Both the position numbers and the translations under genes were made by a program. The notes under the pieces are model-generated. The model did not search any database. It worked only from the letters and a program-made list of their open reading frames with translations, and was not told the origin of the DNA. This document shows, piece by piece, positions 44,280-51,510 of a stretch of DNA of 64,000 nt. The stretch comes from Halolamina pelagica (GTDB lineage: Archaea; Halobacteriota; Halobacteria; Halobacteriales; Haloferacaceae), in NCBI RefSeq assembly GCF_001307315.1, contig NZ_LGUC01000001.1:1302001-1366000 (forward strand). The letters run 5' to 3'. The stretch's first letter is position 1, and each line of letters starts with the position of its first letter.

Positions 44280-45140
44280 TCAGTAGAACTCGCGGACGAG
44301 GTCCGTCGCGTTCTCGGGAGCGCCGTCCGGGATGTCGGTCATGTCCTCGGTGACGCCGTGAGCCTCGTGGTACGGCACGGAGTCCTCGTTCTGGTAGAGG
44401 ATCCCCTGATACTCGTTGCCGTCCATGATGCGGTCGGTGGCCGCGTCCCTGTCGGAGGGGTCGTGGTCGGTCTCCGCCAGGTCGGTGAGGTTGTCGCGGA
44501 AGTAGTCGTACGTGTCCGTGTCGTTGAACGTGACACACGGCGAGAACACGTTGACGAAGCCGAACCCGTCGTGTTCGATTGCCTCCTGGACCAGCTCCGC
44601 GTGGCGCTGGGAGTCCGACGCGAACGACTGGGCGATGAACGTCCCGCCAGCCGAGAGCGCGAGCGCGAGGGGGTTGACCGGCGGCTGCTTCGGCCCGTCG
44701 GGCGTCGTCGACGTCTCGAAGTCCTCGCGCGAGGTCGGCGAGGCCTGCCCCTTGGTGAGGCCGTAGATGCGGTTGTCCATCACGACGTAGCTCATGTCGA
44801 CGTTCCGGCGCACCGCGTGGATGAAGTGGCCCGAACCGATCGAGTAGCCGTCGCCGTCGCCGCCCGCGACCATCACTTCGAGGTCGGGGTTGGCCATCTT
44901 CACGCCCGTGCCCACGGGCAGCGCGCGGCCGTGGACGCCGTGGAGCGCGTAGCTGTGCATGTACGTGCCGATCTTGCCCGAACAGCCGATGCCGGCGACG
45001 ACGAACGTGTTGTCGGGGTCGTTGCCCGTGTTCGCCAGCGCCTTCATCATGCCGTTCATCGTCCCGAAGTCACCGCAGCCGGGACACCAGGTGGGCTGCT
45101 TGTCAGATTTGAAGTCGATGAATCGAGTCTCGCTGCTCAT
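44280..45140 (-). CDS. korB: 2-oxoacid:ferredoxin oxidoreductase, beta subunit
   Basis: A 286-residue TPP-binding subunit. The start FKSDKQPTWCPGCGDFGTMN gives the Cys-containing CPGCG cluster ligands. VAGIGCSGKIGTYMHSYALH, GGDGDGYSIGSGHFIHAVRR (TPP GDG motif) and VVMDNRIYGLTKGQASPTS (NxxYGLTxGQ) follow. It decarboxylates 2-oxoacids and passes electrons to ferredoxin. Which acid (pyruvate or 2-oxoglutarate) is not decided by the sequence. Its ATG overlaps the alpha gene stop (ATGA), forming a two-gene operon. Confidence 0.95.
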   Translation of the reverse strand: MSSETRFIDFKSDKQPTWCPGCGDFGTMNGMMKALANTGNDPDNTFVVAGIGCSGKIGTYMHSYALHGVHGRALPVGTGVKMANPDLEVMVAGGDGDGYSIGSGHFIHAVRRNVDMSYVVMDNRIYGLTKGQASPTSREDFETSTTPDGPKQPPVNPLALALSAGGTFIAQSFASDSQRHAELVQEAIEHDGFGFVNVFSPCVTFNDTDTYDYFRDNLTDLAETDHDPSDRDAATDRIMDGNEYQGILYQNEDSVPYHEAHGVTEDMTDIPDGAPENATDLVREFY

Positions 45141-46887
45141 TGGAGCACCTCCGTGATCTCTTCGGCGAGCTCGTCCGCTTTGAACCCGACGCCGTTGTAC
45201 TTGTTCACCCGGTCCACGCGCTCGAGCGTGTCGTGCTCCAGCACGTCCGCGAACTGCCCCGTTGCGTTACACTCGACGACGACGACCTGCTCCGCCTCCT
45301 CGACCGCGTCGGTCAGGTCCGGGCGCGGGAACAGGTACGGCACCGACAGGAACTGGAAGTCGGGGCGTCCTCGTCCATCAGGTCCATCGCCTCGACGATG
45401 GTCCCCTCGTTGGACCCCCACGAGACGACGAGGTTGTCCGAATCGGGGTTCCCGAACTCTCGGGGGCTCCAGTCCTCCCGCTCTTTTGCGGTCTCAACCT
45501 TCCGCTGGCGCTTCTGGACCTGCTCGACGCGGATCTCGGTGTCCTCGGTCCGTCGGCCGAGCTCGTTGTGCTCGAGGCCGGTGGACATGTGCGCGCCGTC
45601 GGTCGTCCCCGGCAGCGCGCGCGGGCTGATGCCGTCCTCGGTGGCGGCGTGGGCCCGGAAGCGACCCTCGTCGTCGAGCCACTCGTCGATCTCGTCCTCG
45701 TCGACGATCTTCCCGCGGTCGATCTCGACGTCGTCCATGTCGAACGCTTCCGGCGGGAACGTCTGCTCGGTGACCGCCATCTCGAGATCGGCGATCAGGT
45801 ACACTGGCGTCTGGTACTTCTCGGCGAGGTTGAACGCCTCGACGGTCTTCCAGAACGCCTCCGAGATCGTCGTCGGCGCGACGACGAACCGCGGGATCTC
45901 GCCGTGGCCACCGAACAGCGCCATGTTGAGGTCGCCCTGCTCCTGCTTGGTCGGCATCCCCGTCGAGGGGCCCGAGCGCATCACGTCACAGATGACCAGC
46001 GGCGTCTCGCTCTGGGCCACGAGGCCGAACGTCTCGGCCATCAGGTCGATCCCGGGGCCGGAAGTCGCGGTCATCGACCGCGCACCCGCGCGGGCCGCAC
46101 CCAGCGCCATGTTGATCGCCGAGAGCTCGTCCTCGGCCTGCACGACGTGGCCGCCGTAGCGCTCCAGTCGCCCGGTCAGGTACTCCATCACGTCGGTCGC
46201 AGGGGTGATGGGGTAGCCCGAGTAGAAGCGACAGCCGGCGGCGAGCGCGCCCATACCGATGGCTTCGTCTCCGTTGATGAGGACGTAGTCCTCGTCGGTG
46301 GTCTCGAGCTCGTACTCGAACTCGGTGCTCTCGGCCTCGTAGTTCTCCGCGACGAACTCGGCGCCGAGTTCGGCCGCCGTTTTGTTGTTCTCGACGATCG
46401 ACTGGCCCTTGTCGCTGAAGCGTTTCTCCAGCGAGGAGCCCAGGTGCTCGATCGGGAAGTCCGTGACCTCACACGCGGCGCCGAGGGCGACGATGTTGCG
46501 CATGATGGCGCCGCCGGCCTCCTCGGCCAGCGACTTGAGCGGCACGTCCATCCCGACCATCCCGTCGGGGATCTCGAGATCGGCCATCGACGTTCGCTCG
46601 CCGTCGTAGATGATCACCGACCCCTCGTGGAGCTCGTCGATGTTCTCATCGACGGTGCGCTGGGTCAGCGCGATCAGGACGTCGAGGCGATCGACGGTAC
46701 TCTCGACCTGATCGATCGACGTTCGTACTTTGTACGCCGTGTACCCGCCGCGGATACGGGAGGCGAAATCTTTCGACGTGAACACGTGTCGACCGGCCCG
46801 GGAGAGTGCTCTCGCGAATATCTTCCCGGTCGAGTCGATGCCATCGCCGGCCTCACCGCCGATGGCCCAGTTGAAGTCCGCAGGCAT
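45137..46887 (-). CDS. korA: 2-oxoacid:ferredoxin oxidoreductase, fused gamma-alpha subunit (frame break in sequence)
   Basis: One base missing in the G run 45362-45365 splits it; repaired it encodes 583 residues. The N-terminal gamma domain (about 1-180) contains NWAIGGEAGDGIDSTGKIFA and FASRIRGGYTAYKVR. The alpha domain follows with GCRFYSGYPITPATDVMEYL, VVQAEDELSAINMALGAARA and TATSGPGIDLMAETFGL, then a C-terminal transketolase-like domain VVSWGSNEGTIVEAMDL. This gamma-alpha fusion is typical of haloarchaeal and some bacterial Kor enzymes. A 5-bp hairpin sits directly before its ATG. Confidence 0.95.
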
Positions 46888-49498: not shown

Positions 49499-49610
49499 GC
49501 CGAGTGGTTGCTTCCCGGGGGTAAAAACTGCCCCGACTCAGTTCGCGAGGGGTCCCCTTGTAGCGGCTAGTCACCGGTAGCTAAGTAAGGGGGACCCGAT
49601 AGTACGGGTA

Positions 49611-49754
49611 ATGGCAAACACGACTTCGAACACCGACGGCGCCAACGGCACCACGGCGGAAGAGAAGTACTACGCCAACCGCCTCCTGCTCATCACCCTG
49701 CTGTGGCTCGTGCTGGTGCTGGGCGCCGGCGTAGTGATGATCTACTTCCTGTAA
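49611..49754 (+). CDS. Small single-helix membrane protein
   Basis: A 47-residue protein MANTTSNTDGANGTTAEEKY plus one C-terminal helix (LLLITLLWLVLVLGAGVVMI) and a YFL end. The Thr/Asn/Gly-rich N-terminus is polar and the helix is the only hydrophobic segment, so it is a single-pass anchor. It is not long enough to have an enzyme role. The gene ends CTGTAAC, the same 7 bases that border the hairpin repeat locus that begins ten bases later. Confidence 0.75.
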   Translation: MANTTSNTDGANGTTAEEKYYANRLLLITLLWLVLVLGAGVVMIYFL

Positions 49755-49763
49755 CAATCAGCC

Positions 49764-49938
49764 GTTGCCGGCGCACGGAGGCGCCGGCGGGTGTTCGCGG
49801 CGTTGAGTACAACACGACGACGGCAGAGTGTTCGAAGTCGAGACACGGAGGTCTCGACGGAACTTGGCGGTCCCGGTTACGACACGACCGCGGCGGAGTA
49901 ACAGTTGCCGGCGCACGGAGGCGCCGGCGGGTGTTCGC
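49764..49938 (+). repeat. Hairpin repeat locus 1: three ACGGAG-loop stem-loops at 70-base spacing
   Basis: Three perfect 8-bp stem-loops start at 49767, 49837 and 49907, exactly 70 bases apart. Arms are GCCGGCGC, GTCGAGAC and GCCGGCGC, each with its exact complement after the same six-base loop ACGGAG. The inter-hairpin 48 bases share patches such as TAC-ACACGAC and CGGC-GAGT. A 35-base direct repeat spans units 1 and 3 (49764-49798 and 49904-49938). It lies between convergent genes and is flanked by CTGTAAC (49750-49756) and GTTACAG (49944-49950). Confidence 0.9.
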
Positions 49939-49946
49939 CGCGTCGG

Positions 49947-50210
49947 TTACAGCATCCCCTGCGCTTCCAGCCCCGCCATCACGTCGTCGACGAGCGACTC
50001 GACGTCCTCGTAGGGGAACTCCTGTTCGCCACCGAGCTTCGCGGCCAGCTCCATCGCCGTGAACGACACGTCGCCGGCCTCGAACTTCGTGCTCGGCCCC
50101 TGGGGGAGCGCAGGCACGAGATCCATCTGGCTGTCGACCGGGAAGTCGGCGCCCTCGAAGGCGTCGGTGAGCTGTGCACGGAGTTCGGTTTCGGTTTCTT
50201 CGTCGGCCAT
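49947..50210 (-). CDS. DUF5789/MTH865-like small protein
   Basis: An 87-residue acidic protein, ADEETETELRAQLTDAFEGA, with SQMDLVPALPQGPSTKFEAG, SFTAMELAAKLGGEQEFPYE and VDDVMAGLEAQGML. The pattern fits the haloarchaeal DUF5789 family and resembles MTH865 proteins. It is cytoplasmic and of unknown role. The ATG at 50210 is preferred over an upstream Met because the conserved region starts there. Its final CTG-TAA (as TTACAG on the plus strand) forms the right border of repeat locus 1. Confidence 0.85.
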   Translation of the reverse strand: MADEETETELRAQLTDAFEGADFPVDSQMDLVPALPQGPSTKFEAGDVSFTAMELAAKLGGEQEFPYEDVESLVDDVMAGLEAQGML

Positions 50211-50350
50211 ACACCCCAATGCCGCCGAAGGCCGGATAAGCGTTTCCGAAACGTGGGAGAACGTCTCGTCCGTTCCCGACCCCTGGCGAGAAAACCCGCG
50301 TGGCTAGCCGGAACCGCCCGGTTTTAGGTCGCTGGGTCGGAGTTTCCGCC

Positions 50351-51396
50351 ATGGCGTTCGAGTTCGACTTCGACCTGCTGCGAGAGTTGACCGAGACCAG
50401 CGGCGTCCCCGGGTACGAGGACCGCGTGCGCGAACTCGCGCGCGACGAACTGGCGGCGAACACCGACCACGTCCGCACCGACGCCATGGGGAACGTCGTG
50501 GGGACGATCGAGGGCGATTCGGACTACTCCGTCGCCGTCGCCGCCCACATGGACGAGATCGGCTTCATGGTCAAACACATCGACGACGACGGCTTCCTCA
50601 AACTCGACGCGCTCGGGGGCTGGGACGCCCGCGTGCTTCGCGCCCAGCGCGTGACTGTTCACGGCGAGGAGGACATCACCGGCGTGTTCGGCTCGGTCCC
50701 GCCGCACACGCTCGACGATGCAGAGAGCGGCGAGGAGGAGGTCGGCGACCGCGTCGTCGATCTCGGCCGCGACGCCGAGGAAGTCGAGGAACTGGTGAGC
50801 GTCGGCGACGTGGTCACGATGAACCAGTCGACGATCGAGATGGGCGATTCAGTCACGGGGAAGGCGCTCGACGACCGCGTCTGTCTGTTCGCGATGCTCG
50901 AAGCGGCCCGTGAGATCGAGGACCCCGACGTGACGATCCACTTCTGTGCGACCGTCCAGGAGGAGGTCGGCATCCGCGGCGCGACCGCACTCGGCGTCGA
51001 CGTGGCCCCGACCTCGCGATCGCGCTCGACGTGACCGTCGCGAGCGACATCCCGGGCGTCAGCGAGGAGGACCACGTCACCGCGCTGGGCGACGGGACGG
51101 CGATCAAACTGAAAGACAGTTCGGTCATCACGACTCCGAAAGTTCACAAGCGCCTCCGTTCGGTCGCCGAAGATGCGGGAATCGAGCACCAACTGGAGGT
51201 ACTCCCCGCCGGCGGCACCGACACCGCCGGGTTCCAGAACACCAACGGCGCGATCCCCGTGGGCGCGATCTCGATCCCGACGCGCTATCTCCACACGGTG
51301 ACCGAGACGGCCAACGGCGACGACATCCGCGCCACGATCGATCTCCTGGCCGCGTTCCTCGAGAGTGAGGACGGCGAGCACGACTACTCGCTGTAA
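50351..51396 (+). CDS. M42 family metallo-aminopeptidase (frame break in sequence)
   Basis: One C missing in the run 51006-51009 breaks it; repaired length is 348 residues. Metal ligands are in VAVAAHMDEIGFMVKHID (His), ALDDRVCLFAMLEA (Asp), ATVQEEVGIRGA (Glu-Glu), LAIALDVTVASDIPG (Asp) and SIPTRYLHTVTE (His). It is a cobalt- or zinc-dependent aminopeptidase of the TET/glutamyl type, likely forming large cytoplasmic particles. The ATG at 51351-equivalent position is 50351 (MAFEFDFDLLRELTETSG). The gene ends CTGTAAC, adjoining repeat locus 2. Confidence 0.93.
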
Positions 51397-51510
51397 CCGA
51401 CTGCGGCAGGAGCCCTGTTCCAGCCTCCGTGCTGGAACGCCGAAACTGTTGCCGGAGTCGTGTGTAACACCAGCGGCACGAGACTTGTTCCAGCCGCCGA
51501 GGTGGACGCT
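51391..51510 (-). repeat. Hairpin repeat locus 2 (inverted): ACGGAG-loop stem-loop plus decayed copy
   Basis: On the minus strand a perfect 8-bp stem GTTCCAGC/GCTGGAAC encloses ACGGAG (51417-51438). Exactly 70 bases further (51487) a second copy keeps the left arm GTTCCAGC, but the loop and right arm have decayed. Spacer patches match locus 1, including TCGTGT followed by TAAC. The locus begins at the CTGTAACCGAC overlapping the M42 stop codon, the same 11 bases that border locus 1 on the DUF5789 side. The remaining gap to 51638 holds a small AGGAAA-CCCC-TTTCCT hairpin (51581-51596). Confidence 0.82.

Follow-up and report, generated by a model that had tools for sequence, protein, structure and literature searches.

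The hairpin array described here belongs to a dispersed repeat family that is nearly restricted to the genus Halolamina (Haloferacaceae). Each unit is a nested hairpin with covarying stems, a constrained loop and constrained feet. The units are placed at stop codons, they recur at orthologous positions in different species, and the same site can be occupied in one species and unoccupied in another. We consider it probable that this is a REP-like family of extragenic palindromic repeats that supplies or abuts the stop codons of its neighbours and is spread and rewritten by trans-acting machinery.

The array in the window and its neighbouring genes

The window is the whole stretch of DNA that was analysed, 64,000 nt of Halolamina pelagica (GCF_001307315.1, NZ_LGUC01000001.1, 1,302,001–1,366,000); this genome is coded G000. 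The features are listed below in window coordinates. For the array, the plus strand is the strand on which the loop reads ACGGAG, and the owner gene lies on the minus strand.

49611..49754, plus strand: convergent gene, 47-aa protein with no Pfam match and an end that is hydrophobic by eye
49743..49955, plus strand: array of three head-to-tail hairpin units with a 70-nt period, from Tandem Repeats Finder and covariance-model matches (49883–49955 and 49743–49815, with the middle copy at G000:C1:1351813–1351885)
49767..49788, plus strand: copy 1, inner hairpin GCCGGCGC-ACGGAG-GCGCCGGC, from the sequence
49837..49858, plus strand: copy 2, inner hairpin GTCGAGAC-ACGGAG-GTCTCGAC, from the sequence
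49907..49928, plus strand: copy 3, the stop-proximal copy, inner hairpin GCCGGCGC-ACGGAG-GCGCCGGC, model score 86.6 bits
49885..49945, plus strand: full nested hairpin of copy 3, outer arms CGACCGCGGC (49885–49894) and GCCGCGTCG (49937–49945), from outer-stem covariation
49947..49949, minus strand: stop codon TAA of the MTH865-family gene, doubling as the foot tag (TRRC) of copy 3
49947..50210, minus strand: owner gene, 87-aa MTH865-like protein (PF07747, Pfam)
50351..51396, plus strand: owner of the second site, M42 glutamyl aminopeptidase, in two frames (50351–51034 and 51031–51396)
51388..51462, minus strand: second site, one intact unit with its inner hairpin at 51417–51438, model score 66.1 bits
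about 51487..51508, minus strand: degenerate second unit of the M42 site, from the sequence

The three stem-loops of the array start exactly 70 bases apart, and each has a perfect 8-bp stem and the loop ACGGAG, as the preliminary description of this DNA had reported; Tandem Repeats Finder returns a repeat of period 70 at 49764–49951. All three copies listed there are present, though the list was incomplete, with a fourth perfect copy (51417–51438) and a degenerate fifth (about 51487–51508) on the other strand. The hexamer ACGGAG occurs 44 times in the window, counting both strands, and four of these occurrences lie within stems of at least 8 bp. A control of 60 first-order Markov sequences of 64 kb gave no such hairpin in all. 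Copy 1 adjoins the convergent gene and its left outer arm is degenerate, and the stem of copy 2 recurs in the G004 orthologue of the array. As one and the same stem is present in copies 1 and 3, the three copies of the array give a single stem contrast and the claim that their stems covary depends on comparison beyond them; family-wide, the claim holds. The genes that flank the array are indeed convergent, but its anchor is the stop codon of the minus-strand one, at 49947–49949. No T-run follows directly behind the unit, which agrees with the first reading of the sequence.

The second site carries its intact unit directly behind the TAA stop codon of the M42 peptidase gene (51394–51396), and the M42 sites of G004 and G006 have three units each. 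Gene calling splits the M42 gene and a 2-oxoacid oxidoreductase-like gene (45137–46887, name assigned by eye) into two overlapping frames each, which suggests frameshifts, perhaps sequencing errors. The completeness of the G000 assembly is given as 79.9%.

Structure and distribution of the repeat family

The 8-bp inner stem that was first noticed is real, but it is the tip of a longer nested hairpin of about 65 nt, which is composed of a 10-bp outer stem, internal loops, the 8-bp inner stem and a loop, in most cases ACGGAG. Read in the sense of the owner gene, the order is 5'-TRRC, outer stem, internal loops, inner stem, loop CTCCGT, inner stem, outer stem and TG-3'. The units occur as singletons or as head-to-tail arrays with a spacing of mostly 67–74 nt. 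Pairing ends sharply past the tenth outer pair, as the next position is Watson-Crick in 4 of 84 cases, and the other outer arm is followed by T and then G, each conserved in 97% of 108 copies. The arms are highly variable, with 84 different ones among 120 distinct hairpins. The loop, which had been called invariant, is identical in the three array copies and constrained elsewhere, but reads ACGGAG in 69 of the 120 distinct hairpins of the family.

An alignment of 59 copies (A5) supports an outer stem of columns 4–13 with 58–67, a weak middle helix and the inner stem, with 91.0% of the cells paired. Its covariation score is 0.574 compared to 0.185 in shuffled alignments, none of 500 shuffles reaching the observed value, and shifting the partner by 1 to 3 columns reduces the score to 0.13 or less. 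An alignment of 25 copies scored 0.419, which was likewise reached by 0 of 500 shuffles. Examples from the outer stem are pair 5-66 (GC 22, AU 21) and pair 7-64 (CG 21, UA 16). The outer six pairs were not directly used to choose the rows of A5, whereas the CGGC/GCCG core and the inner stem were. Since copies were selected by their loop (allowing up to 2–3 mismatches) and by pairing, the 97% inner-stem pairing of A5, the invariance of CGGC/GCCG and the loop identity are partly due to construction. Stem letters vary between copies while the two sides still match, so the folded shape is maintained; the stems thus covary once more copies are aligned, as the preliminary description had proposed. 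Hairpins that the script found inside coding regions were left out by hand at 8 places for the orthologous pairs, 13 for the Markov and strand set and 7 for the foot-tag count.

Two further structural features were considered. Many copies have, upstream of the inner stem, a CTCCGT that is complementary to the ACGGAG loop. Where the loop varies, however, the flank does not vary with it (mean complementarity 4.257 of 6, compared to 4.259 with shuffled loops), which leaves a pseudoknot or switch unsupported. A middle helix CGTG/CACG, proposed by eye, was replaced by the A5 pairs 19-55, 20-54 and 23-51 following a mutual-information scan. Separately, there are clusters at L102 (4465–4566) and L131 (2661–2806) in which four and five different short hairpins, their loops 3 to 5 nt long, follow one another (for example GTCAGAACTC-GAA-GAGTTCTGAC). 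They adjoin main-repeat arrays of G003 and G005 or lie inside them. Similar single short hairpins were seen by eye in L109, L113, L117, L118 and L123. These clusters are possibly a second, multi-hairpin element.

Genome and covariance-model searches identified many other copies in the own genome and in related genomes. Two covariance models were used, R1 from 25 copies and R2 from the 59 copies of A5. R1 finds matches in all seven Halolamina genomes, and all 45 of its matches in the own genome at E <= 0.1 are on the main contig. R2 gives 481 matches at E <= 0.01 across the same seven genomes, with 21 to 105 in each (G000 78, G001 21, G002 67, G003 68, G004 105, G005 74, G006 68), a rough count for which the best 150 first-look candidates per genome were scored. 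Searches beyond the genus likewise scored the best first-look candidates only, so that the counts are approximate and some copies outside the genus may have been missed. Among 163 genomes from 27 other Haloferacaceae genera, R1 had no match at E <= 1e-5 among the best 28 first-look candidates per genome. Of 392 genomes drawn from the order (best 12 first-look candidates per genome), nine had a match at E <= 1e-4, consisting of six Halolamina genomes and G027, G416 and G459. A DNA search of 60 genomes gave matches in seven, six Halolamina (own genome included) and G043, and a lenient search of 29 genomes of other genera gave matches at E <= 0.01 in five (G027, G012, G031, G035 and G025).

Most of these outside matches were set aside. 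There is no convincing hairpin unit at the DNA match in G043 (L007), the matches in G416 and G459 (L164, L165) appear by eye to be coding sequence, those in G012, G031 and G035 (L167–L169) are weak, and G025 (L170–L173) carries a different repeat of about 350 bp. The array in G027 (L163, another Haloferacaceae genus) looks like a real relative and is the only convincing array outside Halolamina. It has two to three units at about 1429–1663 on the minus strand, with a loop near ACGAG, and is found at the 3' end of a 478-aa frame that ends within the arm of the last unit. The repeat of G025, from a Haloferacaceae genus other than Halolamina, is dispersed, extends up to about 350 bp and contains the invariant hairpin GGCGCGAC-ACGGAG-GTCGCGCC; it has the ACGGAG loop of the Halolamina family, but its stem is constant.

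Plasmid and phage collections contained no match to the 211-base array. A viral scan returned at least 120 stretches with a 15-base gapped pattern, which were judged to be chance matches and counted neither for nor against. Rfam gave two matches for window positions 49500–50350 at E up to 5, both far below the gathering score.

Stop codons and orthologous sites

The first unit of an array, read in the sense of the gene, coincides with the stop codon of the upstream gene, and the TRR of its foot is that stop codon. Among 75 script-cut array ends, a coding frame stops 29–37 nt from the loop in 54, and exactly 34 nt from it in 27; four of the remainder have a coding stop at another offset and 17 have none. 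This set was unfiltered, and the 17 without a coding stop include false hairpins in coding regions and array-internal units. Of the 64 array ends in 60 further stretches, 46 have the stop within this range, nine have it at another offset and nine have none. Convergence, which the preliminary description had given as the setting, does not define this placement, as 28 of the 54 owners have a same-direction gene next; the defining placement is the stop codon of one neighbour. TAA is the stop codon of 21 of the 54 owners compared to 44 of the 303 remaining genes of these stretches (p = 8e-5), and the 46 stops of the further set comprise 21 TAA, 19 TAG and 6 TGA. A TAA, TAG or TGA within 6 nt of the outer arm is found in 51 of 65 proximal units and in 37 of 62 array-internal units, the commonest foot hexamer of the latter being TGTGAC (7 of 62). 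As internal units also carry the stop tag, it seems to be part of the repeat.

Exceptions to this placement exist. At least three site groups, L078/L126, L088 and L090/L103, are upstream of a gene start, near sequence that is promoter-like by eye. The frame at L096/L110 runs into the arm and stops 17 nt from the loop, an offset that occurs three times more in the further set. L132 is an apparent exception that obeys the rule through a short frame, which is zinc-finger-like by eye.

Gene orthology defines 21 site groups that are shared by at least two species, with stems that differ between them. For 36 pairs of orthologous stop-proximal copies, loop identity is 87%, partly by construction as noted above, while the arms are 53% and 59% identical. 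At least one compensatory double change is present in 35 of the 36 pairs, with a mean of 3.1 of the 8 stem pairs. Identical arms are found in 31% of 132 within-array pairs compared to 2.4% of 208 orthologous pairs; at different sites they make up 1.1% of 2729 pairs within a genome and 0.6% of 7516 pairs between genomes. Our interpretation of these comparisons is that tandem duplication enlarges the arrays and that the stems are replaced almost entirely from species to species while the fold is kept. Dispersal of copies between sites is suggested, though not strongly, by one arm, GTGCCGAC, that is present at four sites of G005. Arm sharing within genomes is barely above that between genomes, which makes this evidence thin.

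The window's MTH865 site has the hairpin in all six Halolamina genomes compared; the flanks of G002 and G023 are left out of this comparison. The MTH865 frames of 13 other genera terminate no more than two residues from this position, and by eye no such hairpin is present there. Unoccupied orthologous sites within Halolamina are the L131 gene in G002 and G003, the L084 gene in G001 and the M42 gene in G005, and in each case where the element is absent the gene stops at the corresponding codon. The element therefore joins genes at their ancestral stop codon and does not shorten them. In G003, the L131 gene, which lacks the element, is separated from the convergent stop by only about 10 nt. The comparisons yielded neither an insertion junction nor a target duplication for the repeat copies. 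Two other features were seen in G001. A T-run is present at its L084 site, where the other six species have the repeat, and behind its L131 orthologue (L177) the repeat's place is taken by a sequence, TTGACATCCTC...GAGGATTCCCG, that by eye resembles the palindromic end of an IS200/IS605-type (TnpB) element.

Possible functions and relation to known repeats

A functional RNA of the 3' untranslated region would fold in the gene-sense transcript directly behind the stop codon (loop CUCCGU), be bound by a protein and control translation termination, mRNA 3'-end formation or mRNA stability. This explanation is possible but doubtful. It would account for the placement at stop codons in gene orientation and for the retention of the element at orthologous sites where the stem letters turn over and the loop is conserved, and an RNA effect is plausible given that the available part of PMC12306157, citing other work, describes bacterial REPs within 15 nt of a stop codon as stalling ribosomes. 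G-U pairs were counted on both strands. In the main strand test, for which inner stems were chosen on outer stem and loop, the inner stem had 20 G-U pairs in gene sense versus 8 on the ACGGAG strand (p = 0.036), and 18 versus 7 in a smaller set (p = 0.04). The same comparison in a looser set gave 35 versus 22 (p = 0.11), the outer stem was symmetric between the strands at 21 versus 21 (24 in gene sense versus 28 in the smaller set), and the sums were 41 versus 29 (p = 0.19) and 42 versus 35 (p = 0.49). The inner-stem counts lean towards an RNA in gene sense, but neither sum is significant. A first count, 33 to 30 between the strands with a filter that favoured G-U, was replaced by these. The absence of the element at a given gene in some species and the sites upstream of gene starts also argue against this explanation. 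Rather unlikely is a bolder version in which the element is coupled to translation through a stop codon of its own, the mRNA folds from that codon on, and a dedicated protein reads the CUCCGU loop and controls ribosome release or 3'-end fate for a few dozen genes, the stems being rewritten and the fold kept.

The array could also be a transcription terminator in which the hairpins end transcription in place of a T-run. A hairpin motif ended 59% of transcripts in a Haloferax assay (PMC7237163, in the portion available), and a run of at least four T in the first 60 nt past the stop is found in 0 of 54 element genes, a space that the element itself fills. Element-free genes have GTCTTTTCGC (L084 gene of G001) and GCGAAAAGCCTTTTTCG (L131 gene of G002) behind their stops. 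The regions beyond the arrays speak against this role, as a T-run is found within 60 nt of the distal end in 7 of 27 same-direction sites versus 28 of 120 control genes behind the stop, and in 1 of 25 convergent sites versus 6 of 60 controls. T-runs at a rate like that of controls weaken a terminator function; the array looks inserted between stop and terminator, and the conserved loop should be unnecessary, so that we regard the terminator as improbable. Least credible is neutral upkeep of palindromes, in which replication template switching and conversion between copies perfect the stems and the hairpin is unselected. It would fit the identical arms in 31% of the within-array pairs and the lack of significant overall strand asymmetry between G-U and A-C cells. 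However, it would not keep positions relative to stop codons, and the unpaired parts are conserved as well (loop, TRRC and TG feet), the loop also at cross-species sites.

In the REP-like reading, which we favour, trans-acting machinery would spread copies and rewrite them in place, and it would recognize the folded strand (the conserved loop, the CGGC/GCCG core and the feet) and not the stem letters. Stop codons would be the commonest TRR targets in GC-rich genomes. If transcribed, an array would put stable hairpins at the very start of the 3' untranslated region, the location at which bacterial REPs are reported to stall ribosomes. A search for the Y1 transposase domain (PF01797) gave matches in five of the seven Halolamina genomes and no match in G000 (79.9% complete) or G001, though both carry copies.

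To our knowledge, archaea lack tmRNA. If they are transcribed, the arrays are a ready test set for stop-proximal hairpins in archaea. The some 20 orthologous sites are natural replicates of compensatory evolution, and the repeats make it possible to study which machinery rewrites and spreads hairpins in genomes in which a RAYT-type gene is not found.

A search of the literature on haloarchaeal palindromic and intergenic repeats, Halolamina repeats and archaeal REPs, with a coverage that lay outside most subscription journals, found no description of a stop-anchored hairpin family in haloarchaea. The earlier statement that no repeat of this form is described thus stands for haloarchaea within the literature searched; it does not extend further, since bacterial REPs are close in kind.

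Integron attC sites form an imperfect nested hairpin right after the stop codon of an ORF. The Halolamina owners differ in that they include syntenic chromosomal genes, the conserved part of the repeat is loop and feet, and the R-box consensus of attC was not seen by eye in its units. The mycobacterial MIRUs are tandem, oriented with the gene and carry an ORF coupled to the next gene, and a covarying hairpin is not known as one of their hallmarks. They share with the Halolamina repeat the character of short, mobile-looking repeats at translation signals (PMC12548453, available part), whereas the Halolamina units do not have a constant length that is a multiple of three. The closest haloarchaeal elements we know of are the PATEs and SMRs of Haloquadratum walsbyi, which are small transposase-free repeats with inverted ends or palindromes and without target duplications, as far as the accessible text of PMC3119063 describes them. 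The SMRs are about 80–110 bp and commonly >95% identical, and SMR-A inserts into PATEs and IS605-type palindromes (PMC3119063, same text). The Halolamina units, in comparison, are about 65 nt in 67–74 nt arrays, very divergent and stop-anchored, though a 10-bp outer inverted repeat is present.

Hairpin repeats of the REP type are a feature of bacteria, their HUH transposase is known, and they are the closest kind of element that we know of. In the portion of PMC3733652 available, bacterial REPs (GTAG or CGTC types, including REPINs and BIMEs, mobilized by RAYT/TnpA-REP) are short stem-loops outside genes that number tens to hundreds and frequently cluster, with complementary stem changes within families, an unpaired tag at one end and, in some cases, restriction to a species or genus. 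The termini of GTAG REPs often supply stop codons to flanking ORFs (PMC3733652, same portion), as at 54 of 75 and 46 of 64 array ends in Halolamina, and an effect on translation is ascribed to REPs close to stop codons (PMC12306157, available part). TnpA-REP (RAYT) is an HUH protein that processes single-stranded REP with intact structure (PMC8266576, as far as available). The Halolamina repeat differs in its TRRC-like foot, which lacks the GTAG/CGTC tetranucleotide, in having two nested stems and a conserved loop of 6 nt in a unit of about 65 nt, and in its archaeal host. Its arrays are head-to-tail and do not alternate in orientation, whereas inverted (HH/TT) dimers predominate among bacterial REPs and head-to-tail pairs are rare (PMC3733652, in the part consulted). 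Bacterial REPs are also associated with RAYT/TnpA-REP (Y1 HUH), whereas two of the seven Halolamina genomes, the own genome included, are without a Y1 match. As tag, dimer orientation and the search for a RAYT in the own genome all came out differently, the repeat would work like a REP but is not filed as a member of a REP family. Set beside the RAYT-mobilized REPs of bacteria, it is a genus-wide haloarchaeal hairpin family with a stop-codon foot, head-to-tail arrays and near-complete turnover of its stems.
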